DNA of 64,000 nt from Sulfuricaulis limicola (GTDB lineage: Bacteria; Pseudomonadota; Gammaproteobacteria; Acidiferrobacterales; Sulfurifustaceae): the NCBI RefSeq assembly GCF_002355735.1, contig NZ_AP014879.1:1798001-1862000 (forward strand), in the 5' to 3' direction. The notes beneath the pieces are model-generated. The model saw only the letters and a program-made list of their open reading frames with translations, was not told the DNA's origin and made no database searches. Positions 13,058 through 59,453 of the stretch are shown here, piece after piece (position 1 is the stretch's first letter; each line of letters starts with the position of its first letter). Both the position numbers and the translations under genes were made by a program.

Positions 13058-13073
13058 TGTACGGTTTCGCACA
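13058..13073. promoter_or_regulatory. Palindromic operator, TGTRCG-N4-CGYACA type
   Basis: TGTACGGTTTCGCACA. This is the first of 13 intergenic copies that keep the core GTRCG-N4-CGYAC. The half-site spacing equals that of Crp/Fnr sites (TGTRC-N6-GYACA). It lies in the divergent gap between the BON gene and the PEP-CTERM gene; nothing else is seen in 12959-13337. Confidence 0.7.
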
Positions 13074-13337
13074 TACGCGGCCAGCCGGTGAACGTCTGCC
13101 TGCACTGCATCACGAGAAATGACGCGGGATAAAGCAATACCTCGGCGTTTCCCCGGCTTTCCTGAACACTTTCAGTTCTTAAATAATTCGTGCTGCGTTC
13201 GCCAGCGCACCGAGATATATCGCTCATCCTGATTAGATTTTGGCGTTGCGGCCGAGTGGTCGTTTCCGCACGTGGCTGCGTCAATAGGTGCATCACTGGG
13301 AAATTAAATGGAAACATAGCGCGCAGGAGAGCATGCA

Positions 13338-13988
13338 ATGGATACACCCACCCTGAAAACAAGAATGTCACGATCAATTCGATACAGTTTATTCCTATGC
13401 TTAATAACAATGGCGGCGTCGAGCCATGCGGCAACGGTGTCTTTTTTCCTGAATGAGTCGAATCGTCTTCCCGACGGCATCAACTACGTATCAGTCAATC
13501 TCACTGAAAACCTGGCGGGAGGAGTGGACGTCCTGGCCCGGACTTTGGACCCGCTCAACGACCTTGGCATCCGTGATTTTGGCATTCAAAAGTTTGCTTT
13601 CAGTTTCGATGATGGAACCATGGCGGACGTCTCGGGTCTGCCGGATGGCTGGAAGGTCAAAGGAGACCGGGGCATGAATGGCTTCGGGAAATTCGATACG
13701 GGTCTCCTGGGCAATGCACACACCCGCACCGATGTCTTGAGCTTTACGATTAATGGTGTGGGCATCGATGACTTTGAATCTTATTTTGCGGTAAAAGTCG
13801 CTGGCCTGGATAGCCGCCTTGGACCATCGAACGCCTTTTTCGGCGGTTCTTTGGAAAATGGTTCTTTTGGCCCTGGTTCAGGCGGCACTGACGGAAATCT
13901 TGCTGCAGTGCCGGTGCCCGCGGCCATCTGGTTATTCAGCTCCGGTCTCGTGGGACTCATGGGGCTGGCACGCCGTGCCAAAAAATAA
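13338..13988 (+). CDS. PEP-CTERM (VPxPA-type) sorted exported protein
   Basis: The product has 216 residues. GGAG lies 8 bp before the ATG. A signal peptide (about 13-32, SLFLCLITMAASSHA) leads to a beta-rich domain. The C-terminus carries the sorting signal: VPVPAAIWLFSSGLVGL, a hydrophobic helix and the basic tail ARRAKK. Such proteins are cleaved by an exosortase and delivered to the surface or the exopolysaccharide matrix. No exosortase gene is in this window. The link to the exopolysaccharide genes at 29-34 and 59-64 kb is a known association and an inference here. Confidence 0.88.
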   Translation: MDTPTLKTRMSRSIRYSLFLCLITMAASSHAATVSFFLNESNRLPDGINYVSVNLTENLAGGVDVLARTLDPLNDLGIRDFGIQKFAFSFDDGTMADVSGLPDGWKVKGDRGMNGFGKFDTGLLGNAHTRTDVLSFTINGVGIDDFESYFAVKVAGLDSRLGPSNAFFGGSLENGSFGPGSGGTDGNLAAVPVPAAIWLFSSGLVGLMGLARRAKK

Positions 13989-14123
13989 ATCCGGCACCAA
14001 ATAATCCGCGAGCATCCGCATCCGATCTTCCGCCAGCGCATAGCAACAATGGCGTGCGCTGGCGGAAATCACTGTTCCCGGCCTTCACCACGCCCGCGTC
14101 TCTTCCTTTCGCAAGGCTATTCT

Positions 14124-14139
14124 CGTGCGCCACCGTACA
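14124..14139. promoter_or_regulatory. Palindromic operator, TGTRCG-N4-CGYACA type
   Basis: CGTGCGCCACCGTACA has an intact core and lies 81 bp before the start of the 204-residue Cys-repeat protein. Confidence 0.65.
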
Positions 14140-14219
14140 TACGACGCTGAGTATTCAACGTAAGGTCTGTAATCGACAGTCACATACACTTCATCCAACG
14201 CCCACTTAAAGGAACAATC

Positions 14220-14834
14220 ATGAGAAAATTTACCGTTACAGCGATAGCAGTTGCCATCGGCTTCACGTTTAGCGTCGGTGCCATGGCGCAAACCATGTCC
14301 AAGGACGATTACAAGGCCGGCATGGACAGCATTGCGGCCGAATACAAATCAAACAAAGTCAGCTGCGAAGCGTTGTCCGGCAATGCCAACGACATATGCA
14401 TGGCCGAGATCAAAGGCAAGGAAAAGGTCGCCAAGGCCGATCTCGAAGCCCGTAACAAGAACACCAACGAAGCTCGCTATGATGCACTCATCGCCAAAGC
14501 TGATGCCGATTACGCAGTCGCCAAGGAAAAGTGCGATGACCAGGCCGGGAACGTCAAGGACGTCTGCCTGAAGGAAGCGAAGGCCGCAGAGATCGCCGCC
14601 AAGGCCGATGCCAAGTCGCAGATGAAAATCTCGAAGGCGAACAAGAAGGCCAACGACGAATCTGCCGAAGTGCGCAAGGATGCGCGGGAAACCTCCGCCG
14701 ACGCGCGCCACGATGCTGCCAGCGATAAAAGCGACGCCAATTATTCGGTAGCGAAGGAAAAATGTGACGCCCTCGCCGGTGGCGCCAAGGACAGCTGCAT
14801 GAACGAGGCGAAACTGAACTACGGCCAGAAGTAA
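14220..14834 (+). CDS. Periplasmic charged repeat protein with Cys pairs
   Basis: The product has 204 residues, with signal peptide MRKFTVTAIAVAIGFTFSVGAMA. AAAGGAA lies just upstream of the ATG. The mature chain is rich in Ala, Lys, Asp and Glu and contains three related units, each with two Cys about 10-11 residues apart: SCEALSGNANDIC, KCDDQAGNVKDVC and KCDALAGGAKDSC. The first is followed by EIKGKEKVAKAD and the others by EAK. Between units 2 and 3 is a helical spacer (about 120-165). Each unit could form a disulfide-clamped helical hairpin. Similar proteins occur in many proteobacteria without a known role. Confidence 0.82.
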   Translation: MRKFTVTAIAVAIGFTFSVGAMAQTMSKDDYKAGMDSIAAEYKSNKVSCEALSGNANDICMAEIKGKEKVAKADLEARNKNTNEARYDALIAKADADYAVAKEKCDDQAGNVKDVCLKEAKAAEIAAKADAKSQMKISKANKKANDESAEVRKDARETSADARHDAASDKSDANYSVAKEKCDALAGGAKDSCMNEAKLNYGQK

Positions 14835-16048: not shown

Positions 16049-16753
16049 ATGAACATCGAAACCAATAAATCGCTTACCTATCCGTTTGCCCTGGCGCCAT
16101 TGCCTTTCGCTTACGACGCACTCGAACCCTACATCGACGCGGCAACCATGCGGATACATCACGACAAACATCACCAGACCTACATCACCCGTCTGAATGC
16201 GGCACTCGAAACTTATCCCGAATGGCATGGCCTCAGCATCGAAAAACTGTTGCTGGAGCGGCATAGTGAGTTGCCAATCGCGATCCGACAAACGGTGCAC
16301 GACCAGGGCGGTGGCCACCTGCATCATCAACTCTTCTGGGAAATTCTGAAGCCCGGCGCAACCGGGGACAGGCCCACCAGGGCGCTGGCGCAGGCGATCG
16401 ATCGCAGCTTCGGTTCCTTCGATGCGTTCAAGGCCAGGTTTGTCGACACCGGCGCAAGGCATTTCGCCTCCGGCTGGGTGTTCCTGTTGGTGAACCCGGC
16501 AGATGGAAAGCTGGAAATCCTTTCCTGCCACGATCACGACAGTGCCGTGCTGGAGAATAAAACCGCCCTCCTCCTCAACGACCTGTGGGAACACGCCTAT
16601 TACCTTAAATATCAGAGCGGGCGCGTCGACTATCTCAAGGTTTTCTGGAACGTCGTTAACTGGGAGCACGTCGGTCACCGGCTGGAAAGCGCGCTGGCCG
16701 GCAAGGTGCAGCCTGGGCCGTCGACTAAAAAATTCAGCCACTCAGTACGCTAG
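16049..16753 (+). CDS. Fe/Mn-type superoxide dismutase
   Basis: The product has 234 residues. CAGGAG lies upstream of the ATG. It keeps the metal ligands: His in MRIHHDKHHQTYI (about 31), His in GGHLHHQLFWEIL (about 93), and Asp and His in NDLWEHAYYLKYQ (about 180). The Gly run before the second ligand resembles the Mn enzymes. The residue equivalent to the MnSOD outer-sphere Gln appears to be His (CHDHDS), as in some archaeal or cambialistic enzymes. No signal peptide is present, so it is cytoplasmic. The metal preference is uncertain. Confidence 0.93.
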   Translation: MNIETNKSLTYPFALAPLPFAYDALEPYIDAATMRIHHDKHHQTYITRLNAALETYPEWHGLSIEKLLLERHSELPIAIRQTVHDQGGGHLHHQLFWEILKPGATGDRPTRALAQAIDRSFGSFDAFKARFVDTGARHFASGWVFLLVNPADGKLEILSCHDHDSAVLENKTALLLNDLWEHAYYLKYQSGRVDYLKVFWNVVNWEHVGHRLESALAGKVQPGPSTKKFSHSVR

Positions 16754-16941
16754 CGCACTGAATGTTTTCAGCAGAGGAGGATAATTGTTTGTAACGATGA
16801 TCGGTCTTTGAAACCACGAATGCGTCAACTCCCGGTTTCGAAGCGATGCGGAAGCTTTCCTGACGCTGATCTCCGCCTCTTTCCTGCCTGGCATCGCTAT
16901 CAGCGTTCCTCCGGGCTGTACTGCCCGAAAAGGCGGTCAAT

Positions 16942-17436
16942 ATGAATATGCAACTCAATAAGCCTCTGCACCTGCTGACACTGGCCGCAGGTATCGCCAC
17001 GTTCCTGATCAGTATCGCCGGTATCGTGGGATGCAACATGAATAACCCGGGCAACAACGCAGCGCCCGCCAAATCAGCGGCTTACTCATCCAGGACGAAA
17101 TGCACTGATTGCGGCCGGATCGAGTCGGTAGAGGAGGTCGTGACGCGTGGTGAAGGATCCGGTCTCGGTGCCGTCGGCGGGGCAGTCGTGGGTGGCGCTG
17201 TTGGTCACCAGGTCGGCTCCGGCCGGGGTCAGGACCTTGCGACGGTGGCCGGTGCGGTGGGCGGCGCAGTCGCCGGCAACGAGATCGAGAAGCGGGTGAA
17301 ATCGACCAAGAGCTATGCCATCACCGTCCGCCTTGACGACGGGTCGAGCCGCGTTTTCTACGAAGCCAGCCCGCCGACGTGGCGGCCGGGCGATCAGGTC
17401 AAAGTCACCAACGGCGCGATTCAGTCGAACCGGTGA
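16942..17436 (+). CDS. Glycine-zipper 2TM outer-membrane lipoprotein (SlyB/PcP-like)
   Basis: The product has 164 residues with an N-terminal membrane/signal segment ending in the lipobox-like SIAGIVGC. A CxxC pair (CTDCGRIESVEEV, about 53) precedes a glycine-zipper 2TM domain (GAVGGAVVGGAVGHQVGSGRG, then AGAVGGAVAGNEIEK). The C-terminal beta-rich tail has ITVRLDDGSSRVF and RPGDQVKV. The TKCxDCGxIESVE block is typical of this family of envelope-stability lipoproteins. Confidence 0.87.
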   Translation: MNMQLNKPLHLLTLAAGIATFLISIAGIVGCNMNNPGNNAAPAKSAAYSSRTKCTDCGRIESVEEVVTRGEGSGLGAVGGAVVGGAVGHQVGSGRGQDLATVAGAVGGAVAGNEIEKRVKSTKSYAITVRLDDGSSRVFYEASPPTWRPGDQVKVTNGAIQSNR

Positions 17437-17936: not shown

Positions 17937-17955
17937 CAATTAAGGAGATTTTCCG

Positions 17956-25023: not shown

Positions 25024-25091
25024 CGCAGCCTCCTTTTGTCATTCGATAATCACTGATCATAATAATTATTCCCTTTCCCCCCAAAACCTTC

Positions 25092-25107
25092 GGTGCGCTG
25101 TCGCACA
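25092..25107. promoter_or_regulatory. Palindromic operator, TGTRCG-N4-CGYACA type
   Basis: GGTGCGCTGTCGCACA has an intact core and lies 69 bp upstream of the DUF883 operon. Confidence 0.68.
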
Positions 25108-25197
25108 TAAGGCTGGCAAAAACAACGACGCCACGTCCAAGCAGGCGCCCTGGTAACAGATGGGTTCAGGCTTCGGAGTCAAAGCACAAGCTGCTTC

Positions 25198-25905
25198 CTA
25201 ATCCAGCATGCGATCACGGAGATTGTTGACATCCCGATAGCAGCGGCACGAGGCGCGCTCCAGACCCTTGCGATCGAGAACGGTAAGGCTGCCCCGGCGA
25301 TAACTGATAAGTTTTTTTTCCTGCAGCAGCCCGGCCGCCCGGGTTACACCGACACGGCGCACTCCGAGCATGTGCGCGAGGAATTCCTGTGTAAGATGAA
25401 ACTCGTTCGACTGCAGCCTGTCCTGCGTCATCAAAAGCCAGCGCGCCAGGCGCTGCCCCAGCTGATGATGGCGGTTGCAGGCGGCGGTTTGTGCCACCTG
25501 TGCCATGAACGCATAGAGATAGTGGCTCAACCCGAGTTGCAGCGCAGGGCTGCGCTTTATCTCGTTGCGAAACGACGTTGCCTTCATTCGCGTCGCGCTG
25601 CCTGAGCCTTGCACCAGCATTTGCACGGGGGAAACACCGCTGCCCAAAAAGAGTCCCATTCCCGCCATGCCTTCCCTCCCGACCAGCCCGACCTCCACGC
25701 TCTCATGCCCGCCCAATGGAGTCAGCAGGGATATGACACCGCTGTTGGGAAAGTAAACATGCCGTATTGGCATGCCGGGCTCACAAAGCACATCGCCATA
25801 CACAAGCCTTACCTGTTCGCTGGCGGCGAGCATGCGCTGGTTTTCCTTGGGTGGCAGGGACCGCAATACGCTGTTGGTTATCCGGGCGGGTGTGGCAATT
25901 GACAT
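25198..25905 (-). CDS. Crp/Fnr-family transcriptional regulator
   Basis: The product has 235 residues; the start (MSIATPARI) has AGAGGAA upstream. An N-terminal cyclic-nucleotide-binding-like beta barrel (about 25-135, with YGDVLCEPGMPIRHVYFPNSGVISLL) precedes a long helix and a winged helix-turn-helix (about 160-225). The recognition helix region is LGVRRVGVTRAAGLLQ. No Cys cluster for an FeS centre is visible. The second regulator at 45.7 kb shares the frame GVRRxGVTxAAGxL. A palindrome of the common operator type lies 46 bp upstream, which suggests autoregulation. Confidence 0.92.
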   Translation of the reverse strand: MSIATPARITNSVLRSLPPKENQRMLAASEQVRLVYGDVLCEPGMPIRHVYFPNSGVISLLTPLGGHESVEVGLVGREGMAGMGLFLGSGVSPVQMLVQGSGSATRMKATSFRNEIKRSPALQLGLSHYLYAFMAQVAQTAACNRHHQLGQRLARWLLMTQDRLQSNEFHLTQEFLAHMLGVRRVGVTRAAGLLQEKKLISYRRGSLTVLDRKGLERASCRCYRDVNNLRDRMLD

Positions 25906-25950
25906 TGAATTCCTCTGCTTGTCAGTTAATACGCATCTGCGCACGGATGC

Positions 25951-25966
25951 TGTACGTCAGCGCACA
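25951..25966. promoter_or_regulatory. Palindromic operator upstream of the Crp/Fnr gene
   Basis: TGTACGTCAGCGCACA is fully consensus and lies 46 bp before the Crp/Fnr regulator start, in the gap shared with the PQQ-like lipoprotein gene. Confidence 0.72.
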
Positions 25967-26024
25967 TAAAGAACTAATTAGTGATCTGTGATTGTGTCGC
26001 CGCCTGTCTGAACACCGAGGCAAG

Positions 26025-26040
26025 TGTGCGTTGACGCACC
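26025..26040. promoter_or_regulatory. Palindromic operator, TGTRCG-N4-CGYACA type
   Basis: TGTGCGTTGACGCACC has an intact core, 39 bp before the first candidate start of the beta-propeller lipoprotein and 74 bp from the box that serves the regulator gene. Confidence 0.68.
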
Positions 26041-26078
26041 GATTAACCGCTTTTCCGGGATCACACTGCGAGCGGTAA

Positions 26079-29224: not shown

Positions 29225-29334
29225 TTCCGGTTAGAACGATCTGGTATTGACCGCACGCACATAAGACATGTCTTGCACCGGCGCAGGCCGCTGATTCAAA
29301 CCCGGTCAGTCTGATTCACGACACACTCAGAGTC

Positions 29335-29350
29335 TGTACGCCAACGCACT
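29335..29350. promoter_or_regulatory. Palindromic operator, first of a tandem pair
   Basis: TGTACGCCAACGCACT. The second box starts exactly 17 bp further on. The pair lies between the ATP-grasp gene and the sugar transferase gene. Confidence 0.7.
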
Positions 29351-29351
29351 G

Positions 29352-29367
29352 AGTACGGCGACGCACA
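29352..29367. promoter_or_regulatory. Palindromic operator, second of a tandem pair
   Basis: AGTACGGCGACGCACA, 33 bp before the sugar-transferase start. The same 16 bases recur at 31087-31102. Confidence 0.7.
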
Positions 29368-29400
29368 GACTCTGAGTCGCTGAAAGTTTATGTTCCGCGC

Positions 29401-30882: not shown

Positions 30883-31069
30883 AAATAGAGCCAGCCCGGC
30901 ACATCTCCCTGTTTTCGTTTTCAAAACCAAGTAAACATCCCTGCCAACTGTTCATTTTTGAATCTCGTCTTATTGCTGTTGTCACCACGCATTAAAAAAT
31001 ATCGCAGCGAAATCGCCCGTATCTGATTGCTGCCGGTTCGCCGTGCGGATGCCGGTATCGGAAGAACAA

Positions 31070-31085
31070 TGTGCGACAACGCACA
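31070..31085. promoter_or_regulatory. Palindromic operator, first of a tandem pair
   Basis: TGTGCGACAACGCACA has perfect half-sites. It is paired with a second box 17 bp downstream, exactly as upstream of the preceding transferase gene. Confidence 0.72.
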
Positions 31086-31086
31086 G

Positions 31087-31102
31087 AGTACGGCGACGCA
31101 CA
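31087..31102. promoter_or_regulatory. Palindromic operator, second of a tandem pair
   Basis: AGTACGGCGACGCACA is identical to the box at 29352-29367 and lies 58 bp before the chosen start of the chimeric glycosyltransferase. Confidence 0.72.
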
Positions 31103-31160
31103 GACGCTGAGTTGTTTGATGATTATCTTCTGCTCCATAAATCCAACCTCCGGGCGCCAC

Positions 31161-34245: not shown

Positions 34246-34408
34246 CACTTTTTCTCCGGTTGTATACAAGATTCCCGCCGACCCGTGCCCGCTTAATCAC
34301 GCAAGGACCGGGCACAGTGATCGCCGCTTCAACCGGCGATTTTCCGCCTGGCTGTCACCAGGCCTCAGGCGCTCATCTGAAAACTAATCGGCGCATGCCC
34401 GTGCGGTC

Positions 34409-34424
34409 TGTGCGGTCTCGTACA
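34409..34424. promoter_or_regulatory. Palindromic operator, TGTRCG-N4-CGYACA type
   Basis: TGTGCGGTCTCGTACA is fully consensus and lies in the 315-bp divergent gap between the GH8 and acyltransferase genes (164 and 137 bp from the starts). A further half-site GTGCG is at 34401. I see nothing else in the gap. Confidence 0.7.
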
Positions 34425-34560
34425 CAGTGAGGCAGAAGGTGTTCTACCGTACAGAAACAGGCCGGGTGCGGTGGGACACTGGCCATGTCGGAATAGCTGT
34501 TACCTTTATCTGTAGCAGGTGTATCGGCCATGATTATTGCCGTGCTACGCCGGGATCCAC

Positions 34561-35996: not shown

Positions 35997-36056
35997 GATT
36001 ACCCACCCGACGCCCAGAATGTGCGTTGGCATTTTTGCAAAGCGAGAAGAAAATTT

Positions 36057-42270: not shown

Positions 42271-42396
42271 CACTTAAACCTCTCCCTGAGCACTGGTTGC
42301 CTCGATACATCGCAGTTCCATTGCCTGTATTCGCACCCCTGAGGGCAACTACACCGGCGCCGGCGTTCGCTTCGTACATATTAATAAGCACTTGTC

Positions 42397-42412
42397 TGTA
42401 CGGTAGCCCACG
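42397..42412. promoter_or_regulatory. Degenerate palindromic operator
   Basis: TGTACGGTAGCCCACG differs from the common core at one position (CCCAC for CGCAC). It lies 127 bp upstream of the GH5/SGNH gene and is a weak member of the operator family. Confidence 0.4.
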
Positions 42413-42562
42413 TAGGCACCAAACATACACATAAGTTCGTTATCTATGGACTAACGTGCGCCGGAAGGAGCGTTAGGTCTGACGAGCGGGTATACGATCA
42501 TTCTGGTAGGTTTTTCTCAGCATTCGTCGCGCGCGACGACCGGGAAATCCGTCGCACACAAA

Positions 42563-43089: not shown

Positions 43090-43104
43090 GCGCATACTCC
43101 TTTT

Positions 43105-43260: not shown

Positions 43261-43382
43261 GCCGGCCTCCGGTCAGACTTGTTAACGATGCGATGAATAA
43301 CGGCGTGTTTGCCGTGCAAATCACATGGAACGCCCGCCCCGTGCCGCCGCAGAGATAAATACGCCTAGTCTCCTGCCGGTTC

Positions 43383-43398
43383 TGTGCGCTATCGCACG
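43383..43398. promoter_or_regulatory. Palindromic operator, TGTRCG-N4-CGYACA type
   Basis: TGTGCGCTATCGCACG has an intact core, 123 bp upstream of the DUF3096/lipoprotein pair. The rest of the 43261-43568 gap shows nothing recognisable. Confidence 0.68.
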
Positions 43399-43568
43399 CA
43401 GGGCAGCTCTTTAGCGAATTTGTCCGAGATAACCTGCTTGGAGTCCGAATAATCCAGCGACGACGCAGCCACGGTTGAACGCGGATAGATGACGAATTAA
43501 GCCAAGATCAGTTGCATGGATCGTGGGCTTGTCTGTGCCCACGGAATCAAACTGCATTGATAAACGGC

Positions 43569-45748: not shown

Positions 45749-46468
45749 TTACGCCGCGATCAGATGGGGGAGCATGTGGTCGAATTCATTTTTAACTACG
45801 GCATAGCACTCGCAACTGCGGTCCTCGAGCCGCGGCCGGTCAAGCACGGTGATATGGCCGCGGGCATAATGAATCAGGCCGGCGCTGCGCAATTTTCCGG
45901 CCGCATCCGTGACACCTTCGCGGCGCACGCCAAGCTTGTTGGCGATCGATTCATGGGTCACGGCCAATTCATTGGTGGGTGAACGATCAAGATTCAGCAA
46001 CAACCAGCGACAGAGTTGCTGATCCACCGAATGATGGCGGTTGCATACCACGGTTTGCGCCATATGCGTGATCAGCGCCTGGGTGTAACGCAACAATACA
46101 TGACGCACCGAATCCGAACGATCGAATTTTTGCCTCAATAATTGCTTGTTCAGGCGATAGGCGTAACCGGCGTTCTGCACAACGGCGTGGCCAAGTGCAG
46201 TTTCCGCCCCCATGAAGGTGGAAACACCGATCATTCCCTCACTACCCACCACGGCGATTTCGGCACACGCGCCTTCCTCCGTGACATGCAGCAAGGAGAT
46301 AACAGAAGTGATGGGAAAGTAGACGTAATTAAACACCGCTCCGGATTCACAAAGGACTTTTCCCTGGGGCAGGTGGATTAATTCCAGTTGCATCGACAGA
46401 AGCTTGTAGTCGGACGCCGGTAAAGCGGCGAGAAGATGGTTTTGTCGCTGGTTATACGAATCGGTCAT
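45749..46468 (-). CDS. Crp/Fnr-family transcriptional regulator
   Basis: The product has 239 residues with AAAGGAG upstream. A sensor barrel (about 22-140, with LPQGKVLCESGAVFNYVYFPITSVISLL) and a helix-turn-helix (about 165-215, THESIANKLGVRREGVTDAAGKLRSAG) match the regulator at 25.2 kb in architecture and in the recognition frame GVRRxGVTxAAGxL. The gene follows the diguanylate cyclase by 41 bp on the same strand. No operator box lies directly upstream, so it is probably read from the cyclase promoter. Confidence 0.92.
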   Translation of the reverse strand: MTDSYNQRQNHLLAALPASDYKLLSMQLELIHLPQGKVLCESGAVFNYVYFPITSVISLLHVTEEGACAEIAVVGSEGMIGVSTFMGAETALGHAVVQNAGYAYRLNKQLLRQKFDRSDSVRHVLLRYTQALITHMAQTVVCNRHHSVDQQLCRWLLLNLDRSPTNELAVTHESIANKLGVRREGVTDAAGKLRSAGLIHYARGHITVLDRPRLEDRSCECYAVVKNEFDHMLPHLIAA

Positions 46469-46509
46469 GGCTGGGCTCCTTTAAAATAAAATGTTCTAAT
46501 CGAGCTAGC

Positions 46510-47697: not shown

Positions 47698-47887
47698 TTT
47701 ATTTTCTCCTGGACCGTTATTATTGACGTGCATAGGATGGCCTGTCGCATGACATCTAACAATCAAGACAAGACCGGAATATGAATCGGGGAAATACCGG
47801 AATCGGGGGCAGGAGGATTCCGGAATTAACTCAATATGGATGGGGTCTTCAGGGAAAATTCAGCCACGAACGAATCAAACGATAAAG

Positions 47888-48520: not shown

Positions 48521-48523
48521 TGT

Positions 48524-49462: not shown

Positions 49463-50052
49463 CCCAAATAACGCCCGACCAATACCAGCGCATCGTCGGT
49501 ATGGCGCGCCGATCTGGCCATAATGTCATCGGCAAGATGCTGGGGCGATTGATTCAGATTCATGTGCTGATCAAAATCCTCACGTACTCCGTCGGTCGAA
49601 AAAATCAATGTGTCTCCGGCCTTTATCGGGAGCACGGTGGGATGAATCGGGCCCAGCCGGTGCCCCAGGATGCCCACACTCAGCAACAAGGTTCGGGGCT
49701 GAGAAAGCGCGTCACGAGACAGCAGTTTGCCCTCAACATTCCCGACCCCCGCCCACGTCAAGGCCATCTCAGGATGATTGAACGAAGCCACGCTCATCAC
49801 CACCCCGCGTGTCCCGCGCAGTTCGTCATGGCAACGTTTAATCAACGGCTCGAGCGCCTCGTGGGGGCGGCTTTTCAATATATTCCCGGCAATCTCGGCC
49901 GCCCTGGCGGCTTCCGCGCCATGCCCGATTCCATCCACCGCTGCCACCAGGACACCGTCAGAAAAGGGTACCACGACATACCGGTCACCACATTCTTCCT
50001 GGCCTGGCAGCGTCAAGGTCGCGACTCCCAAATCCAATGCAATCTGGTTCAT
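49459..50052 (-). CDS. SpoIIE/PP2C-type serine phosphatase (RsbX-like)
   Basis: The product has 197 residues; the start is the ATG that overlaps the RsbT stop as ATGA. The PP2C fold shows GDRYVVVPFSDGVLVAAVDGIGHG (metal Asp residues), GVVMSVASF, TWAGVGNVEG, GDTLIFSTDGVREDF and DDALVLVGRY. At this position it should act like RsbX, removing phosphates from RsbS and RsbR to reset the stressosome. Confidence 0.9.
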   Translation of the reverse strand: MNQIALDLGVATLTLPGQEECGDRYVVVPFSDGVLVAAVDGIGHGAEAARAAEIAGNILKSRPHEALEPLIKRCHDELRGTRGVVMSVASFNHPEMALTWAGVGNVEGKLLSRDALSQPRTLLLSVGILGHRLGPIHPTVLPIKAGDTLIFSTDGVREDFDQHMNLNQSPQHLADDIMARSARHTDDALVLVGRYLG

Positions 50053-50447
50053 CGTTTCCATTTTTTTACCGTCACGGTCGTGCCATGACCGGGGCGCGAA
50101 TCGATCTTGAATTCGTCCATCAAGCGGCGCACCCCCGGGAGGCCTATACCCAGACTGCCGGAGGTCGAAAACCCCATTTTCATCGCCTGCTCCAGATTGG
50201 AAATGCCCGGTCCTTTATCGCGAGCCACCACGACAATGCCGCAAGCTCCGCTCTTGTTCAGAGTACTTAGGGAAATTTCTCCTTCTTTTGCGTAGTGAAC
50301 AATATTACGCGCCAATTCCGAAATGGCGGTGGCGATCAGGATTGCGTCGGTATTACTGAAACCGAGCCCGGACGCGAGCGAACGCCCGCTTTGACGCGCG
50401 GCGACAATATCCATGTCCACGCGAATCACTATCCGGGTTTTATCCAT
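50049..50447 (-). CDS. rsbT: RsbT-like serine/threonine kinase (stressosome switch)
   Basis: The 132-residue GHKL ATPase-type kinase shows VAARQSGRSLASGLGFSNTD, ATAISELARNIVHYAKEGEI (N-box), VVARDKGPGISN (G1) and GSLGIGLPGVRRLMDEF. In the stressosome it phosphorylates RsbR and RsbS on stress, is released, and activates its downstream partner. Here the RsbU-type domain of the histidine kinase is the obvious partner. It overlaps rsbS by 8 bp. Confidence 0.94.
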   Translation of the reverse strand: MDKTRIVIRVDMDIVAARQSGRSLASGLGFSNTDAILIATAISELARNIVHYAKEGEISLSTLNKSGACGIVVVARDKGPGISNLEQAMKMGFSTSGSLGIGLPGVRRLMDEFKIDSRPGHGTTVTVKKWKR

Positions 50448-50820
50448 CGCGAGGAGCGCTTACTTTCCTTGTGGTGGTCTGGTCCAAATACGCTAATCCT
50501 TCCTCCAGATCCAATGCCGTCGCGACGCCTTCCAGCGTGAGTCCAAGCTGCACCATGGCAAACGCCACCTCCGGCTGGATGCCCACGATTACTGTGACCG
50601 CGCCGCGCAACTTGATCATGTGCACCAGGTCGCGCAGGGTGCGCGAGGCGAACGAATCCATGACATCCAGCACCGTCACATCGACGATGACGCCACGCGA
50701 GCGAAACGTGCTCACTTTAGCCACCAGGGCATCGCGCAACTGCATCAAATCGGCATCCGACAGGGCTGATTGGATCGAAGCGATGAGATACGCGCCTTGC
50801 TTGAGAATAGGAACTTGCAC
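50440..50820 (-). CDS. rsbS: RsbS-like STAS protein
   Basis: The product has 126 residues and is a single STAS domain. The expected RsbT target serine is present in VTVLDVMDSFASRTLRDL (about 58). It is a core scaffold component that binds RsbT until phosphorylated. It is second in the operon, 26 bp after rsbR. Confidence 0.94.
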   Translation of the reverse strand: MQVPILKQGAYLIASIQSALSDADLMQLRDALVAKVSTFRSRGVIVDVTVLDVMDSFASRTLRDLVHMIKLRGAVTVIVGIQPEVAFAMVQLGLTLEGVATALDLEEGLAYLDQTTTRKVSAPRDG

Positions 50821-50846
50821 CAGTAGGCCCTTTAGATAAACCCTTT

Positions 50847-51758
50847 CTAGGGTTGTTGAACCGACGTTGCCTCACGGATGGAAACGACTTTGTAGCCCAA
50901 CAAGCGTTCGGCCTCCTCGATGCCACCCTGAAGATCGCCCACTGTATTCATCTTGCTGAGATCCACGCCGATGTTCACCAGCGTCTGGGAAATCTCCGGC
51001 GACAGGCCGGTCACAATCACCGTCGCGCCCAAAAGCCGCGAGGCTTCCACCGTCAACACCAAGTGGTTGGCGACATTGGAGTCCATGGCGGCCACGCCCG
51101 TGATGTCGATCACCACCACTTTGGCGCGGTTGGTGCGGATGGCGCGCAGGAGTTGCTCCGTCAATTGGCGTGCGCGCTGCGGATCTATCAGACCGATGAT
51201 GGGAAGAATCAGCAAGCGCTCACGCACTTGCAGCACTGGCGTCGAAAGCTCGCGAATCGCTTCTTGCTGATCGCGAATGGTACGCTCGCGCTCCTGCACG
51301 AAACCCACGGCCACGGTGATGGCGATGCGGTTGGCGGCCGGTTCGTAGGCATCGAGAATACGGTTGAGCTTGTCGAAATCAGCTTGATATTTGGCGAACA
51401 GGGAACGCGCCAGCACGTCGCGCAGAAGCAGCACGATCCCCACCACTTCATGGGTTTCCACGCCCCTCGGAATGATGCGTTCGGAAAGATTGCGCGAATA
51501 GGACTGCAGGGCTTCGAGAGTGCCCGTTTCCAGGGCCTCGACGTAGTTATCGTAGACCGACGTGGCCTCGGCGAATATTTCGTCTTTGCTCATGGCCATG
51601 AGCAGTTGCGCCTCAGTGATGCGTCGCGCCCATTCCTCGCGCAATTGAGTGCGATTTTGCCGCAGGTGGGCGACGAGTTCACTTAGCAATTGATCGGGGG
51701 TCGTCGGAAACGCAGAAGTCGCTCTCGAAACACGCGATAAATCGGAATTTTTTCTCAC
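50847..51758 (-). CDS. rsbR: RsbR-like stressosome sensor/scaffold
   Basis: The product has 303 residues; AGGAG lies upstream of the ATG. The N-terminal helical RsbRD-type sensor (about 20-160) contains no haem-globin or PAS signature. The C-terminal STAS domain (about 170-285) has the phospho-site region IRELSTPVLQV (Thr equivalent to Bacillus T171) and VVIDITGVAAMDSNVANHL. It starts the operon rsbR-rsbS-rsbT-spoIIE-kinase-regulator. The signal it senses is unknown. Confidence 0.93.
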   Translation of the reverse strand: MRKNSDLSRVSRATSAFPTTPDQLLSELVAHLRQNRTQLREEWARRITEAQLLMAMSKDEIFAEATSVYDNYVEALETGTLEALQSYSRNLSERIIPRGVETHEVVGIVLLLRDVLARSLFAKYQADFDKLNRILDAYEPAANRIAITVAVGFVQERERTIRDQQEAIRELSTPVLQVRERLLILPIIGLIDPQRARQLTEQLLRAIRTNRAKVVVIDITGVAAMDSNVANHLVLTVEASRLLGATVIVTGLSPEISQTLVNIGVDLSKMNTVGDLQGGIEEAERLLGYKVVSIREATSVQQP

Positions 51759-53998: not shown

Positions 53999-54004
53999 GT
54001 TTAT

Positions 54005-57000
54005 TTATGCGCTCACGGTGCGTCGTTTTCCCGGATTGTCATAAGCATCCATCAACGCCGAGACTTGTGCGGCCATCTGCTCCAGGCCATGGCCCTTGAA
54101 CACAGTAAAATGATCGCCGTCGAGGACGGAAACATCGACACCGGCCAACGCGAAAGGGCCCCAACCCATTTGCGGGTCGAGAAACAGACCTTTGGGCTCC
54201 TGGGCGCTGCACAAAAGCATTATTTTTCCCGAGTAAGGTTTGGGCTCATAGGATTGCGCCATTTCCTCAAGATAGCCGAGCAGCCACTGATCATAATTTT
54301 CCGCGCTTGACTCCCTGGTCTCGAATGCGACGCGAGCCGGTGGGCTGGCCGGCGAGCGGCCAAACCAGCGCAACAGTCTTTTATACATGACCCGCTGTTC
54401 CATGAACGCGGCCAGCGTCTGCTCGCGCGATATCACTCTCCGCCAGTCCGCGCCAATCAGTTGCCAGCGATACGAGTAATCGGCAAGGATGGCGCGCGTC
54501 CGGGAAAGTCGTCGATGGTGGCCCGGTGCCCAGGCATCAATCATGGCGAGCAGCGAAACCTCGTGTCCCGCCTCAACAAGCTGTCGCGCCACCTCGAAGG
54601 CCAGCACCCCGCCGACGCACCAGCCAATCAGCTTGTAAGGTCCGGTGGCCTGAAACTTGCGGATAAGCTGAACGTACTCGGCGGCGATGACTTCCAGCGT
54701 TTGCGGCAGACTTTGGCGCGTTATCGAAGGGTCGAACAGCTGAAGCGCCGTGAGAGGTTGATCCGGGCCAAGACGTCTGGAAAGATTGTAATAATAAACA
54801 CCGGTGTTATGGATGGCGATCAAAGGCGGCTTTGAACCATTGGGCTGCAACCGGACCACTTGCCGAAAATCGAATTCGCGCTGACCGCTGTACGTCAACA
54901 GCTTTGCCTGTTCAGCGATGCTCGATGCCTTGAACAAGGTCAACAGGCTCAGCCGTTGCCCGAACTCTGCCTCGATACGGGCCAACAGCCGCGCCGCCAG
55001 CAGGGAATGGCCACCCGATTCGAAGAAATCCGCGGTCTTGTCGATTGTCTCGACTCCCAGAACCGAACTCCAGATCCTGGCCAGACGACGTTCAACCTCG
55101 TTGAGTGGTTGCGCCGTTTCCTTGCTTTGATGCGGTACTGGTGCCGGCAGGTTACGGCGGTCGATCTTGCCGTTTGGCGTGCGTGGCAGCGCATCGAGCA
55201 TGACGATGGATGCAGGGCACATATAACCCGGCAGGGATTGCGACAGGCTGGCGCGCAATGCGTCAATCAGGACTTCAGGCGACTCCGCCCGGGCGACCTG
55301 AGGAACCGCGTAGGCCCAGATCGCACCCTCCCCCGAAGGGTCTTGTCCGAGCACGGCGACGGCCTCGGCAATGTCCGGATGGCGCAACAGCACCGTCTCG
55401 ATTTCTCCCAGCTCTATGCGAAAACCACGCAATTTTATCTGGTGATCGATACGGCCGAGATACTCCATGCTCCCATGCTGTTTCATGCGGACCATGTCAC
55501 CGGTACGGTACATCATCGCGCCGGCATGCTTGCGGAACTTGTCGGGGATGAATTTCTCCCTGGTTGCCTCCGGCTGCTCGAAATAGCCGTGCGCGACTCC
55601 GTCGCCTCCAATACAAAGCTCACCGGGCACGCCATGCGGCACCAACTCCTGATGGCTATCGACAATGTAGAACTGCGTATTGGCGATCGGCGGCCCGATC
55701 GGAACCGGCCCCGTGCCGGCCTCAACCCGCAGCGCCGAGGACCAGACGGTGGTCTCGGTAGGTCCGTACATATTCCAGAGTTCGCCGTCGCATTGCAGCA
55801 GCCTTTCAGCGAGGTGGCGCGGCATCGCTTCGCCCCCACACAACATCTTGAGCGGCGGGTTACCATGCCAGCCTGCCTCAAGCAGAACCTGCCACATCAC
55901 CGGCGTGGCCTGCATGAAGCTGGCCTGGTGTCGCTGCAGAAGCGCGAACAACGCGGCGCCGTCGGCCATTTCCTGTTCCTTCGCCAAAATCAGCCTGGCG
56001 CCGACAATCAAGGGAAGAAACAGATCCGGCACCGCCATATCGAAAGAGATCGTGGTAACCGAAACCACCGTGTCTTCATGAGTGAGCCCGGGCTGACGCC
56101 GCATCGCGCAAAGCAGATTGACCAGTGCACGGTGATGAATCGCCACTCCTTTTGGCCGTCCGGTCGATCCGGAGGTGTAGATGACATAGGCGGGATCGTC
56201 GGGCGATGCGGACGGCGGCAAAGCTTCCGCACTCTGTTTTGCAATCAGCATGGACTGCGAGTCGACAACGATTACCGACATCGCCTCATAGACCAGGTGT
56301 TCGCGTAACGAAGCTTGCGTGATAAGGGCCGCGGGGCGCGCGCTCTCGAATATGTACTGCAAACGCTCCACCGGGTAAGTCGGGTCGAGCGGGATATAGG
56401 CACTGCCGGATTTAAGCACGGCCAGGAGCGCCACCATCAGCTCGGACGTGCGGTCCAGAACCACCGCGACCCGGCTGGCCGGCTCAACCCCGCGTCGTCG
56501 CAGTTCATAGGCCAGCCGGTTCGATGCGAGGTCGAGTTCACGATAGCTCATGCTGCGCTCACCGCAAACCACGGCGACCGCTTCCGGCGTGCGTCTGGCC
56601 TGGGCCTCGAAAAGCTGAGGCAGCGTCAGATGCCTCGGATAGATGGCACTGGTGCGATTGTTTTCGACAATCAGCTCATGGCGCTCGCTATCGTCAAGCA
56701 TCGTCAGGCTCGAGATTTTGCGCGACGGATCGGTCACCACAGAGTGCAACAGCACCTTGAGATGATCGAGAAGACGAACGATTGTTTGATTCTCAAACAG
56801 ATCAAGATTGTATTCACAGCACGCGCTCCAGCCTTCCGGTCCTTCTACCAGGGAGAAATCCAAATCGCAGGCCGCGCGCACGGAACACGAGGGCAGCTCG
56901 ATCAGCCTGAAGCCGGCAGAGTTATTGCTCGTCATCAACGGCCGCGGGAACGTGAAATTCACCGAAAACAGCGGATTCCGGCTCAGGTCCGGCGCGGGCT

Positions 57001-58024
57001 TCACGATTTCGATCAGATCTTGCGTCGTTATCTGCTGATGCTTCAGGATGCCGGCAAGACTGTCGCGAATACGCACCAGCAGCTCGAGGAAGCCGGGATC
57101 GTCCGACAAATCGTTGCGCACCACCAGCCTGTTGCTGAACAGGCCGATCAGATTCCCGAGATCCGCTTCGTCGCGATCGGAAAATTCGCTGCCGATGGAA
57201 ATATCGGATTCCCCTGTATAACGGCGCAGCAGTGTCAACAGCGCCGCCAGAACGGTCACAGGCAGCGTGGTACCGTTGAGACGGCCAAGTTGCGCCAGTT
57301 CGCTGGCTAATTCCCTGCCCAGGGGAACTGACAGGGCGCTTCCGTTCGCCGTCAACATCGTTGGACGCGCGCGATCAGTTCGAATTTCGAAATGCTTGAA
57401 GCCTCGCAGGGCGCGTTCCCAGTAATCCGCATCCGTCTGCGGGACTGGCCTGGTGAGTCGCTGCGCCCGCCGTGCCGAAAATTCACCGTAACTGACGGGC
57501 AGATCCGGCAATACCGCGGGCCGGCCTGCATCCAGCGCCACGCCAATCTCACTCAACTCGCGCGCCAGGATGTTGATCGACCACGAGTCGCTGACGATAT
57601 GATGCAGCGTCACCAGCAATACCGAATCATCCCTGCGCAGGCGCACGTGCGTTATTCGCATCAGCGGTGGTGCCGATAAATCGAAGGGAGTGCACGCTTC
57701 CAGACGTGCGATGCGCCCGGTTTCGATCAGCGCTTCCGCTTCGGGTAATCCCGTCAAATCGATCACGGGAATATGGAAGGAAACCTGCGGCTCAATGATC
57801 TGCATGACTTCGCCACCGGTCTCCGCAAAATACGTGCGCAAAACCTGATGTCGCGCCATGATCAGTCGAAATGCATTTTCCAGCCCGGCATTGGAAATCG
57901 TGCCCTGCAGACGCCAACGCACGGTGAGGTTCAACGATGGATTACGTGGATTGAGTTGATGCAACAGCCAAAAACGGCGTTGGCCCGGAAAGCAGGGAAA
58001 CTCAAGCTTTTTTTTCCCCGCCAT
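54005..58024 (-). CDS. Single-module nonribosomal peptide synthetase (C-A-PCP-TE)
   Basis: The product has 1339 residues. The ATG at 58024 was chosen because GGAG lies 7 bp upstream and the C domain begins at once; the frame stays open to a TTG at 58201 but without a ribosome site. The C domain (about 5-430) has active HHIVSD at 141-146. The A domain (about 455-960) has YTSGSTGRPKG, NMYGPTETTVW, YRTGD, GRIDHQIKLRGFRIELGEIE and NGKIDR. The carrier is FFESGGHSLLAARL. The TE domain (about 1075-1330) has GWCVGG, with Cys near 1134 as nucleophile, plus MIDAWAP and DGDHF. Specificity residues read by eye as D-M-P-Q-L-G-M-V-W-K, with no confident substrate. A leading C domain implies an acyl or peptidyl donor from elsewhere. 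Confidence 0.93.
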   Translation of the reverse strand: MAGKKKLEFPCFPGQRRFWLLHQLNPRNPSLNLTVRWRLQGTISNAGLENAFRLIMARHQVLRTYFAETGGEVMQIIEPQVSFHIPVIDLTGLPEAEALIETGRIARLEACTPFDLSAPPLMRITHVRLRRDDSVLLVTLHHIVSDSWSINILARELSEIGVALDAGRPAVLPDLPVSYGEFSARRAQRLTRPVPQTDADYWERALRGFKHFEIRTDRARPTMLTANGSALSVPLGRELASELAQLGRLNGTTLPVTVLAALLTLLRRYTGESDISIGSEFSDRDEADLGNLIGLFSNRLVVRNDLSDDPGFLELLVRIRDSLAGILKHQQITTQDLIEIVKPAPDLSRNPLFSVNFTFPRPLMTSNNSAGFRLIELPSCSVRAACDLDFSLVEGPEGWSACCEYNLDLFENQTIVRLLDHLKVLLHSVVTDPSRKISSLTMLDDSERHELIVENNRTSAIYPRHLTLPQLFEAQARRTPEAVAVVCGERSMSYRELDLASNRLAYELRRRGVEPASRVAVVLDRTSELMVALLAVLKSGSAYIPLDPTYPVERLQYIFESARPAALITQASLREHLVYEAMSVIVVDSQSMLIAKQSAEALPPSASPDDPAYVIYTSGSTGRPKGVAIHHRALVNLLCAMRRQPGLTHEDTVVSVTTISFDMAVPDLFLPLIVGARLILAKEQEMADGAALFALLQRHQASFMQATPVMWQVLLEAGWHGNPPLKMLCGGEAMPRHLAERLLQCDGELWNMYGPTETTVWSSALRVEAGTGPVPIGPPIANTQFYIVDSHQELVPHGVPGELCIGGDGVAHGYFEQPEATREKFIPDKFRKHAGAMMYRTGDMVRMKQHGSMEYLGRIDHQIKLRGFRIELGEIETVLLRHPDIAEAVAVLGQDPSGEGAIWAYAVPQVARAESPEVLIDALRASLSQSLPGYMCPASIVMLDALPRTPNGKIDRRNLPAPVPHQSKETAQPLNEVERRLARIWSSVLGVETIDKTADFFESGGHSLLAARLLARIEAEFGQRLSLLTLFKASSIAEQAKLLTYSGQREFDFRQVVRLQPNGSKPPLIAIHNTGVYYYNLSRRLGPDQPLTALQLFDPSITRQSLPQTLEVIAAEYVQLIRKFQATGPYKLIGWCVGGVLAFEVARQLVEAGHEVSLLAMIDAWAPGHHRRLSRTRAILADYSYRWQLIGADWRRVISREQTLAAFMEQRVMYKRLLRWFGRSPASPPARVAFETRESSAENYDQWLLGYLEEMAQSYEPKPYSGKIMLLCSAQEPKGLFLDPQMGWGPFALAGVDVSVLDGDHFTVFKGHGLEQMAAQVSALMDAYDNPGKRRTVSA

Positions 58025-58287
58025 AACAGCTCTCCGGAGACGCATCGCCGGATCATTGACGCGATCAGTCGTTATGGTGCCCATTGCGTCAAAGCGTTGT
58101 CGAGTTTTGACTCTGGCGTTGAAGAGTTTGGTGCCAGCCACCGGTAACCAGGCTTCGGAAGGCAATATTTGGATAGACCATTTTCCGTTCGCCGCAACCA
58201 AAGGGAAATAACGGGCAGCAAGACCTTATCCCCCTGTTTCAGATTAATGAACAGACACGGACAGTATGCTGGCAGGAATCCTGCGTC

Positions 58288-58303
58288 TGTACGCGGACGT
58301 ACA
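58288..58303. promoter_or_regulatory. Palindromic operator, TGTRCG-N4-CGYACA type
   Basis: TGTACGCGGACGTACA has perfect half-sites. It lies in the 426-bp divergent gap between the NRPS and SGNH genes (264 and 147 bp from the starts). A weaker relative (GTTTG-TCAG-CGCAC) is at 58323-58336. Nothing else is recognised in the gap. Confidence 0.7.
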
Positions 58304-58450
58304 TAATCCTCGCACCCGGTATGTTTGTCAGCGCACAGAGGCCAATGGTCCTGTTCCCGTAAAATTCGATCATCAGCCAGGAAATGATGGTTTGTTTGCG
58401 CATACCAAATTGGCATATCGGTGGAAAACCGGAAATAGTGAGGATCGTTC

Positions 58451-59398
58451 GTGACACAGCCAGCGACCAGTACGCGAGGAATAAGCTCGGTACATATTTT
58501 GTTCGCCGCCGCCTGTGCGTTTCTTGTTATCACTCTTTCGTCCTGTTCTGGCGGTGGATCATCGTCTGAAACAACAGCTGCCTCGGATCAGATCGCCGTC
58601 TGGGGAGACAGCACCACTTCCGGCGTTGGCGCCACCGACTCTGACTCGAGTTATCCCGCGCAGCTGCAGTCATTGACGGGACGCAACACCTATAACGGCG
58701 GTGTTTCAGGACAAAACAGCGATCAAATCGCAGCGCGCCAGGGCGGCGCGCCAGCATTATTGACGTTTCCGGGTAATACCCTCATTTCCGCAGGTCCTGT
58801 CGTGCTTGAATCGCAGTCGACCTTCCCGGTAACCGCCGAGGGCCCCGGTCCTGTCACCGGAACTATCGGTGGATTTCACGGCACGCTGAGCTATCAGACC
58901 GATGCTGACAATAATCCGCAGTTGGCATTCACACGCGATACTCCGGGGGTGCCGGAATACATTCCCGCGCAAAGCCCTTTCCACCCCGATACCTTCGGTC
59001 GAGAGGATGGAATTAACGTGTTCTGGATGGGGCAAAATAATTTTTACGATCCGCCGGGAGTAAAGTCCGATATCGCCAAGTGCATCGCGTTTCTTTCCAG
59101 CAAACGGTATATCGTGATGAGCCTGCTTAACGCGGGCGATGAAGGCATCGGAACCACGTCCTACGATCAGTTGGCGCAGATCAACGCCGACCTTGCGCGA
59201 ACCTATCCGGATAACTTTTTCGATATCCGCAAGATACTGATAAACAACTACGATCCAGCCAGCCTCCAGGACGTTCAGGACCACATCAACGATGTGCCAC
59301 CCAGCTCGCTGCGCAATGACGCCGAGCACCTGAACGACAAGGGTTACGCGGTCGTGGCACAGCAAGTTGCGGCCTTTATCGCGTCCCGGAGCTGGTAG
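58451..59398 (+). CDS. SGNH/GDSL-family lipoprotein
   Basis: The product has 315 residues from a GTG start. The signal ends in the lipobox VITLSSC followed by a Gly/Ser linker. The SGNH fold shows the nucleophile block IAVWGDSTTSG (about 48), a Gly in YNGGVSGQNS, block III as FWMGQNNFY (GQNN in place of GxND) and the catalytic Asp/His pair in RNDAEHLNDKGY near the C-terminus. It is likely an acyl- or acetyl-esterase acting on a surface polymer. It is divergent from the NRPS gene and upstream of the exopolysaccharide operon. Confidence 0.85.
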   Translation: MTQPATSTRGISSVHILFAAACAFLVITLSSCSGGGSSSETTAASDQIAVWGDSTTSGVGATDSDSSYPAQLQSLTGRNTYNGGVSGQNSDQIAARQGGAPALLTFPGNTLISAGPVVLESQSTFPVTAEGPGPVTGTIGGFHGTLSYQTDADNNPQLAFTRDTPGVPEYIPAQSPFHPDTFGREDGINVFWMGQNNFYDPPGVKSDIAKCIAFLSSKRYIVMSLLNAGDEGIGTTSYDQLAQINADLARTYPDNFFDIRKILINNYDPASLQDVQDHINDVPPSSLRNDAEHLNDKGYAVVAQQVAAFIASRSW

Positions 59399-59437
59399 GG
59401 CCGGGTGCCACAGCGACTCTCAGGCGCCAAGGTCTTG

Positions 59438-59453
59438 TGTACGACACCGCACA
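59438..59453. promoter_or_regulatory. Palindromic operator upstream of the Wzz operon
   Basis: TGTACGACACCGCACA is fully consensus and lies in the gap before the two Wzz-type genes. A TATAAA at about 59475-59480 is a possible -10 box just downstream. Confidence 0.7.

Follow-up and report, generated by a model that had tools for sequence, protein, structure and literature searches.

Which protein reads the palindrome GTRCG-N4-CGYAC, and with what effect, is the question raised by a 64-kb stretch of the Sulfuricaulis limicola genome (positions 1,798,001–1,862,000 of the single 2,864,672-bp contig; hereafter the window), in which this motif recurs in front of envelope and exopolysaccharide genes. 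Our analysis indicates that the palindrome is very probably the operator of a subfamily of Crp/Fnr regulators, which, judging from the DNA sequence, would control envelope, exopolysaccharide and cyclic di-GMP (c-di-GMP) genes by Class II activation. An earlier note on this DNA had likewise read the motif, in the promoters of envelope and exopolysaccharide genes, as a Crp/Fnr-type operator. The rank of the palindrome, its co-occurrence with the regulators, its conservation and its position at -41.5 support that reading.

Distribution of the palindrome in the genome

The exact core GTRCG-N4-CGYAC occurs at 14 places in the window, while 100 dinucleotide shuffles of the window averaged 0.29 places and reached 3 at most; the earlier note's expectation of 0.24 was near this mean. 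Each of the 13 sites that it listed is present and correctly placed, and the additional one lies at 16745. Its statement that all sites lie between genes is limited to those 13, because site 16745 overlaps the 3' end of a superoxide dismutase (SOD) open reading frame (ORF). The listed sites are not all independent, as the pairs 29336/29353 and 31071/31088 sit in duplicated DNA, in which 867 bp are 97% identical and the 43 bp around the sites 91%.

Equal density of the motif inside coding regions genome-wide had been named as a result that would speak against the proposal, and the genome comes close to it, with 30 places for the simple core and 34 for its reversed form in 2.86 Mb. The simple core is unenriched genome-wide because the real sites are almost confined to one neighborhood of ~95 kb. 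Specifically, 16 of the 30 places lie within 1.81–1.90 Mb, namely the 14 in the window and two downstream of it (1,874,551 and 1,895,197). Ten of the remaining 14 matches were checked; nine are located in long stop-free frames (at least 765 nt), which makes them probable chance matches in coding DNA. The tenth, at 1,185,353, is a good site with an OmpA gene on one side and an IF-2B-family gene on the other, an arrangement that, together with the site, is also found in G257, a genome of another family.

The surroundings were analyzed over 144 kb, consisting of the window and four flanking 20-kb stretches, with gene limits taken from our own gene calling and corrected by hand. With a looser core, GTNCG-N4-CGNAC, the window gains the sites 12387 and 13197, and the series reaches to about genome position 1,900,700. 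Intergenic DNA makes up 13.4% of the 144 kb and holds 22 of the 24 looser-core sites (binomial 1.4e-17), compared with one of the five places found for the reversed control. When 9,984 two-fold palindromes, each defined at four bases per half, were ranked by their frequency in this intergenic DNA, the GTNCG-N4-CGNAC type came first, with 21 places. Ranks 2–5 are forms of the same motif (8 and 7 places for ranks 4 and 5), and the first unrelated palindrome has 6.

Positions that had not been selected are also biased, with T at -3 in 39 of 44 half-sites, T at -1 in 32 of 44, and a pyrimidine-purine (YR) center. These bases extend the core to the 20-bp palindrome TNTGTNCGNYRNCGNACANA, which occurs six times in the genome, always within the region, and never in reversed form. 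A matrix built from the region's sites gave 29 intergenic and 3 genic matches at a score of at least 10, training sites included, and added weaker sites such as those ahead of the SGNH gene (58323) and the GH5/SGNH gene (42398).

A Crp/Fnr subfamily in the same neighborhood

Thirteen HTH_Crp_2 genes score above the cut-off in this genome, and five of them (regulators A–E) lie in the motif neighborhood. The earlier note's Crp/Fnr interpretation is supported, while its count of two paralogs falls short of these five. The subfamily is marked by a CNRHH motif and an LGVRR[E/V]G recognition helix; CNRHH is present in all five and in none of the other eight Crp/Fnr genes, whose 1.5-kb flanks contain one looser core in total. 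The recognition-helix segment reads VRRVGVT in A and VRREG[V/I]T in B to E. Regulators C, D and E are all encoded downstream of the window and exceed the HTH_Crp_2 cut-off, as do A (60.3 bits) and B (54.2 bits; cut-off 27). The cyclic nucleotide monophosphate (cNMP)-binding domain passes in B (32.4 bits) and stays under the Pfam cut-off of 27.5 in A (26.0 bits). The AlphaFold model of A is CRP-like, with a predicted local distance difference test score of 88.8; its best PDB match is GlxR (TM-score 0.72), with NtcA and Clp also among the matches. The N-terminal cNMP-binding-like jelly roll and long dimer helix of the Crp/Fnr superfamily are present, and TNTGTNCGNYRNCGNACANA contains TGTNC-N6-GNACA, the half-site spacing of Crp/Fnr operators. 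By domain, fold and operator geometry, these regulators belong to the Crp/Fnr superfamily. The true start of A, judged by eye, is likely the ATG near 25905. In its ortholog in G005 (contig C182, locus L081), two TAA codons stand in the 5' part of the frame, where the start may be later or the frame damaged.

The palindrome follows the subfamily in other genomes

The link between motif and subfamily was examined in two sets. The first comprises 34 named loci that encode relatives of A in Proteobacteria, Acidobacteria and cyanobacteria, and includes two same-genus loci. In the 500 nt upstream, counted without a reversed control, GTACG-N4-CGTAC is the commonest exact 5+5 palindrome (7/34), and the looser core is found at 17/34. 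The second is a class set of 276 genomes, 34 of which hold the subfamily at 1e-40, with 78 matches. The upstream DNA of 66 of these was examined, leaving out four from our own genome, one from G011, and seven that were fragments or low-ranking. Within 600 nt upstream, the looser core is present at 23 of the 66 genes and its reversed form at 2. Omitting the two own-family rows (one own, one G011), the GT.CG-N4 palindrome ranks first of the 9,984 at the 64 genes outside our own family (22/64). The palindromes at ranks 2 and 3 (19 and 17 of 64) represent this motif in shifted form, and the best unrelated palindrome reaches 12.

The simple core genome-wide and a purine/pyrimidine (R/Y) 16-mer across the 276 genomes were too noisy, the latter giving 77 sites and 43 reversed in the 34 subfamily-positive genomes (summed by hand); therefore, the 20-mer was derived, from our own region only, and the scan was repeated. 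The 20-mer is present in 22 of the 34 subfamily-positive genomes and in 11 of the 242 negative ones (Fisher 3.3e-16; 9.9e-15 without our own family). Summed by hand, the positive genomes hold 50 sites against 2 reversed, and the negative genomes 12 against 10. The clustering of sites around regulator genes recurs in part elsewhere. All five 20-mers of G273 are found on a 4.98-Mb contig, in a 35-kb stretch that surrounds two subfamily genes; all three of G300 lie within 48 kb around one subfamily gene, and four of the seven of G257 within about 10 kb around one subfamily gene, while the five of G076 are spread over three contigs.

The recognition helices of the five paralogs are alike; therefore, several of them may share the operator, and a single operator type may serve more than one signal. 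We propose only tentatively that five paralogous sensors of different signals converge on one operator type within the ~95-kb envelope, exopolysaccharide and c-di-GMP neighborhood, with subfamily and operator recurring in other families of the class, clustered alike in some genomes, and the operator also upstream of subfamily genes in Acidobacteria and cyanobacteria. If instead only A (window 25198) used the operator, the other four would bind elsewhere and merely adjoin the sites. The promoter of A does carry sites in all three same-genus relatives that encode it (G004, G005 and G006), and A and its three orthologs share VRRVGV, unlike B to E. However, VRREGVT-type genes of other families carry the palindrome upstream (for example at loci L170, L180 and L204), and the promoter of regulator C itself carries a site, here and in G006. 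Restriction of the operator to A is therefore rather unlikely.

Position of the sites relative to promoters

Gene layout determined how the sites were oriented, within the same script as the first scan for -10 boxes, and divergent sites were counted both ways. This gave 24 rows, to which 21 of the 23 sites contributed, all but 13197 and 31071. The hexamer TANNNT occurs at offset 29, 29.5 bp from the palindrome center, in 9 of the 24 rows, compared with a mean of 0.28 per offset, and none of 20,000 circular shifts reaches this peak, with or without the duplicated promoter. In other families, offset 29 holds TANNNT in 7 of 40 rows (20 sites read both ways; mean 0.72; 13 of 20,000 shifts reach it). 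The genus relatives, whose sites are not independent of our own, have it in 17 of 108 rows. If the -10 box is taken to begin at -12, the palindrome is centered at -41.5 from predicted start sites, which is the Class II position of CRP. Starts are predicted near 16793, 25058, 29401, 31136, 58254 and 59487. A TANNGT hexamer (TACTGT, TACCGT or TAGCGT) stands at the Class II position on the side of the nonribosomal peptide synthetase (NRPS) gene in all four genomes, and an ATAAAA box of the Wzz promoter keeps its distance in all four. TATGTT lies at Class II spacing from the downstream site (29353) of the sugar-transferase tandem. One base off this spacing are GATAAT at site 16742..16761 and TAAAAT at site 58320..58339.

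A site at -41.5 overlaps the -35 region and could seat a repressor, so that the palindromes might be repression operators of the same subfamily. The sites at regulator A's own promoter, where no clear Class II -10 box is present, would agree with this. The sites of repressors are expected to scatter, whereas the position here is fixed at -41.5 at many promoters, including those of other families. Such fixed spacing is a hallmark of Class II activation. Repression as the general function is thus quite improbable.

The motif also contains TGT-N10-ACA, the upstream site of sigma-54 enhancer-binding proteins of the NifA/PrsR kind, and could be such an upstream activating site. The PEP-CTERM and exopolysaccharide context would suit this, and a sigma-54 activator gene is located just upstream of the window, at genome position 1,794,769. 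We found 55 matches resembling -24/-12 elements in the 144 kb, 47 of them in called genes, at no consistent distance from the palindromes. A sigma-70-type -10 box, by contrast, recurs at a fixed 29.5 bp, and the motif follows the Crp/Fnr subfamily, which makes a sigma-54 site highly improbable.

Conservation in same-genus relatives

Orthologous promoters were compared in G004, G005 and G006, draft genomes in which not every site was found in each. Many sites keep their place at orthologous genes, as the earlier note had expected of a functional motif. Sites lie upstream of the orthologs of the YqjD-like gene, the NRPS gene, the Wzz operon, regulator A and the Big_5 gene in all three, the last about 0.5 kb before the matched part (G004_C105, G005_C322 and G006_C7). 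The promoter site of A is in the same place in each, and the second site (26023-type) is present in G004 and G005 and missing from G006. Sites also precede the orthologs of the BON gene (G005_C322 and G006_C6), the PEP-CTERM-type gene (G006_C6, 6913), gene 14220-14834 (G005_C322, 25110) and the small gene at 42901 (G005_C279, 12309; G006_C21, 12066). In this layout, core 13059 pairs with the BON gene (G005 and G006) and core 13197 with the PEP-CTERM gene (G006 only). The site at the SOD 3' end recurs in G006_C6 (10388) and G005_C322 (22475). Core and N4 spacer of the GH8/acyltransferase site 34410 are identical in G005_C279 and G006_C21, as is the N4 spacer of the Wzz-operon site 59439 in G005 and G006. 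The GH5/SGNH ortholog has a site 490 bp ahead in G006_C21; the nearest in G005_C279 is 3.1 kb off. In places the gene order has changed while the site stayed with its gene, for example at the Big_5 gene in G006_C7. The looser 16-mer TGTNCGN4CGNACA is found 14 times in G004 (1 reversed), 22 times in G005 (4) and 15 times in G006 (3).

The duplicated promoter pair inflates the count and the simple core is unenriched genome-wide, but there is next to no chance that the palindromes are a repeat family or an accident without regulatory meaning, given that their spacers and flanks vary and that their positions are intergenic, kept in relatives, and tied to a regulator family and a -10 element.

Between the same neighbors in G005_C279 and G006_C21, the block 45749-51758, which encodes regulator B, the PAS-GGDEF gene, a response regulator and an RsbU_N/HATPase gene, is missing, as if it had been inserted or lost.

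Observations that weigh against the proposed operator

Several results do not fit an operator of the subfamily acting at the Class II position. No looser-core site lies within 600 nt upstream of 43 of the 66 subfamily genes in the class set, or within 1.5 kb of regulator B. The strict 20-mer is missing from 12 of the 34 subfamily-positive genomes and present in 11 of the 242 negative genomes. Within the genus, five genomes (G001, G002, G003, G007 and G008) have no subfamily member at 1e-40 and still hold 31 loose 16-mers against 4 reversed, and G007 alone has 13 against 0. The four G007 sites that were read closely all lack the outer T/A pair, and its stretches C75, C79, C99 and C30 contain no convincing orthologs of the region's genes. 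At the regulator genes themselves the geometry differs. In the named loci, -10 hexamers are most frequent at offset 48 for the 17 sites upstream of regulator genes, 2 of which have one at offset 29, and in the class set the best offset is 28 (5/24); therefore, autoregulation may use another geometry or be repression. Finally, the transcription start predicted for the sugar transferase, 29401, is also where the first ATG of its ORF lies, which would require translation to start further in.

Proposed mechanism and target genes

The computed motif, position, conservation and subfamily link lead us to infer how binding, activation and paralog overlap might come about. A dimer of a subfamily regulator would bind the two TnTGTNCG half-sites, which have CRP-type spacing. 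At many targets the site at -41.5 would stand in for the -35 box and the dimer would recruit sigma-70 polymerase, and with the site in this place the protein would therefore act as a Class II activator. The predicted targets are BON, glycine-zipper, YqjD-like and OmpA-type envelope proteins, the exopolysaccharide cluster, c-di-GMP enzymes, a hybrid kinase and some regulator genes. The site 25949..25968 makes autoregulation of A, of either sign, probable.

In the window, the sites precede genes for BON, PEP-CTERM-type, glycine-zipper, YqjD-like and holin-X-like proteins, the sugar transferase, the chimeric glycosyltransferase, GH8, the acyltransferase, NRPS, SGNH and EpsF/EpsG-like proteins; the PEP-CTERM and EpsF/EpsG matches score under the NCBIfam cut-offs. 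Beyond the window, sites precede genes for GGDEF and GGDEF-EAL proteins, a polysaccharide export protein and a hybrid histidine kinase, as well as a BON/CsbD/DUF6627 group. Among the genes downstream of 20 sites in four genomes of other families are those for BON, CsbD, glycine-zipper/OmpA, PLD, DUF4398 and Ysc84-type proteins, a polysaccharide deacetylase and a subfamily Crp/Fnr regulator, and several sites have no recognizable target. Envelope and matrix genes thus recur as a theme. The earlier note had called the motif a single switch for matrix and envelope stress; the stress role was drawn from gene types alone, and "single switch" goes beyond the evidence.

Sites and genes of the window

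The sites of the window and its two regulator genes are collected in Table 1.

Table 1. Palindromic sites and subfamily regulator genes, in window coordinates. PWM, position weight matrix.
Feature	Coordinates	Strand	Context
Weaker site ACTGTACGATGGCACACATA	10800..10819	-	Upstream of ice-binding-like gene 9817-10719 (-); PWM score 17.5; intergenic
Palindrome TCTGTGCGATATCGAACATA	12384..12403	-	Upstream of Big_5 protein 11046-12254 (-); absent from the earlier list
Palindrome TCTGTACGGTTTCGCACATA	13056..13075	-	Upstream of BON-domain gene 12611-12958 (-)
Weaker site TGCGTTCGCCAGCGCACCGA	13194..13213	+	Upstream of PEP-CTERM-type gene 13338-13988 (+)
Palindrome CTCGTGCGCCACCGTACATA	14122..14141	+	Upstream of 14220-14834 (+), protein without Pfam family
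Palindrome TCAGTACGCTAGCGCACTGA	16742..16761	+	Overlaps SOD ORF 3' end; upstream of glycine-zipper gene 16942-17436 (+)
Palindrome TCGGTGCGCTGTCGCACATA	25090..25109	-	Upstream of YqjD-like (DUF883) gene 24700-25023 and holin-X-like gene 24274-24678 (-)
Crp/Fnr regulator A	25198..25944	-	Recognition-helix segment VRRVGVT; HTH_Crp_2 E 1.7e-16
Palindrome GCTGTACGTCAGCGCACATA	25949..25968	-	At promoter of regulator A
Palindrome AGTGTGCGTTGACGCACCGA	26023..26042	.	Between regulator A and divergent gene 26079-27806
Tandem palindromes, cores 29336 and 29353, 17 bp apart	29333..29369	+	Upstream of undecaprenyl-phosphate sugar transferase 29401-30882
Tandem palindromes, cores 31071 and 31088	31068..31104	+	Upstream of chimeric CoA_binding_3/WecG glycosyltransferase gene; duplicate of sugar-transferase promoter
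Palindrome TCTGTGCGGTCTCGTACACA	34407..34426	.	Between GH8 gene 33118-34269 (-) and acyltransferase 34537-35814 (+)
Weaker site TCTGTACGGTAGCCCACGTA	42395..42414	-	Upstream of GH5/SGNH gene 39253-42273 (-); PWM score 17.4
Palindrome TCTGTGCGCTATCGCACGCA	43381..43400	-	Upstream of small gene 42901-43095 (-), no Pfam family
Crp/Fnr regulator B	45749..46468	-	Recognition-helix segment VRREGVT; directly downstream of same-strand PAS-GGDEF gene 46510-47766
Palindrome TCTGTACGCGGACGTACATA	58286..58305	-	Upstream of NRPS gene 54005-58201 (-); core 58289 faces NRPS
Weaker palindrome TATGTTTGTCAGCGCACAGA	58320..58339	+	Core 58323 faces SGNH gene 58451-59398 (+); PWM score 19.6
Palindrome TGTGTACGACACCGCACAGA	59436..59455	+	Upstream of Wzz/EpsF/EpsG-like operon from 59542 (+)

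The 17-bp center-to-center spacing of the tandems (29336/29353 and 31071/31088) looks too close for two side-by-side dimers. The same spacing recurs in G006_C7 (248/265), before the sugar-transferase ortholog, and at locus L098 (3791/3808). In the region 29300-32700 of the window, the chimeric glycosyltransferase gene is fused to a WecG/TagA/CpsF domain and has 867 bp at 97%, as well as its promoter sites, in common with the neighboring sugar transferase gene; this high identity suggests a recent duplication or gene conversion. A site is also found in G257 (L234) before a protein similar by eye to the product of 14220-14834. An ELWxxDGT repeat protein, with nine stretches matched, is encoded at 36021-37514.

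Downstream of the window, between regulators C and D, lies the gene for a 2,879-residue GH94/glucoamylase/glycosyltransferase protein (L033:3537-12176, genome about 1,885,537–1,894,176), presumably of the cyclic beta-glucan synthase kind, with a weak site ahead of it at 87093 on the window scale. A KaiC-like ATPase gene (L032:14206-15663) is located near PAS/GAF and hybrid-kinase genes, close to regulator C.

Relation to known systems

CRP Class II promoters share with the sites described here the two-fold 16-bp core, the 6 bp between pentamers, the center at -41.5 and the CRP fold of the regulator. They differ in the half-site, which is TGTGA for CRP and TGTNCG here, and identity to E. coli CRP chains is about 15%. 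The CG of the half-site was preset in the scan, yet the unbiased ranking also places it first. The NtcA operator of cyanobacteria is GTA-N8-TAC, usually at -41.5. The present motif resembles it in operator and position, the regulators give weak profile matches to NtcA, and A shares R-V-x-V-T-R in the recognition helix (alignment, by eye). In contrast, A and B score 23.6 and 31.3 bits against an NCBIfam cut-off of 244.95, the sites here hold CG at positions 5–6 of each half and allow A, G or T before it, and the targets are envelope and polysaccharide genes. No NCBIfam model scores above its cut-off for A or B. The half-site separates these regulators from CRP, and the NCBIfam cut-off separates A and B from NtcA.

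Clp of Xanthomonas and Bcam1349 of Burkholderia are c-di-GMP-responsive Crp/Fnr regulators of polysaccharide. The present system is similar in its Crp/Fnr regulators, its exopolysaccharide genes and its link to c-di-GMP, with Clp among the fold matches and GGDEF and GGDEF-EAL genes downstream of sites; the comparison here is by fold only, and the c-di-GMP link is genomic. PrsK, PrsR and RpoN control PEP-CTERM genes at comparable PEP-CTERM/exopolysaccharide loci, but no -24/-12 element stands at a consistent distance from our sites. No description of the motif or the operator was found in the literature searched, which is weak evidence of novelty, since Crp/Fnr is unsearchable as a term and journals were covered only partly.

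Implications

These findings suggest, from comparison of sequences, that the subfamily consists of widespread, little-studied Crp-like activators with the palindrome as their switch site. For a Crp/Fnr subfamily extending from Proteobacteria to Acidobacteria and cyanobacteria, the palindrome would thereby be the likely DNA target, Class II activation the likely mode of action, and the control of envelope, extracellular matrix and c-di-GMP genes the likely role. Targets in many genomes may be predicted from the operator, and regulator and operator are open to direct test as a pair in a laboratory host.

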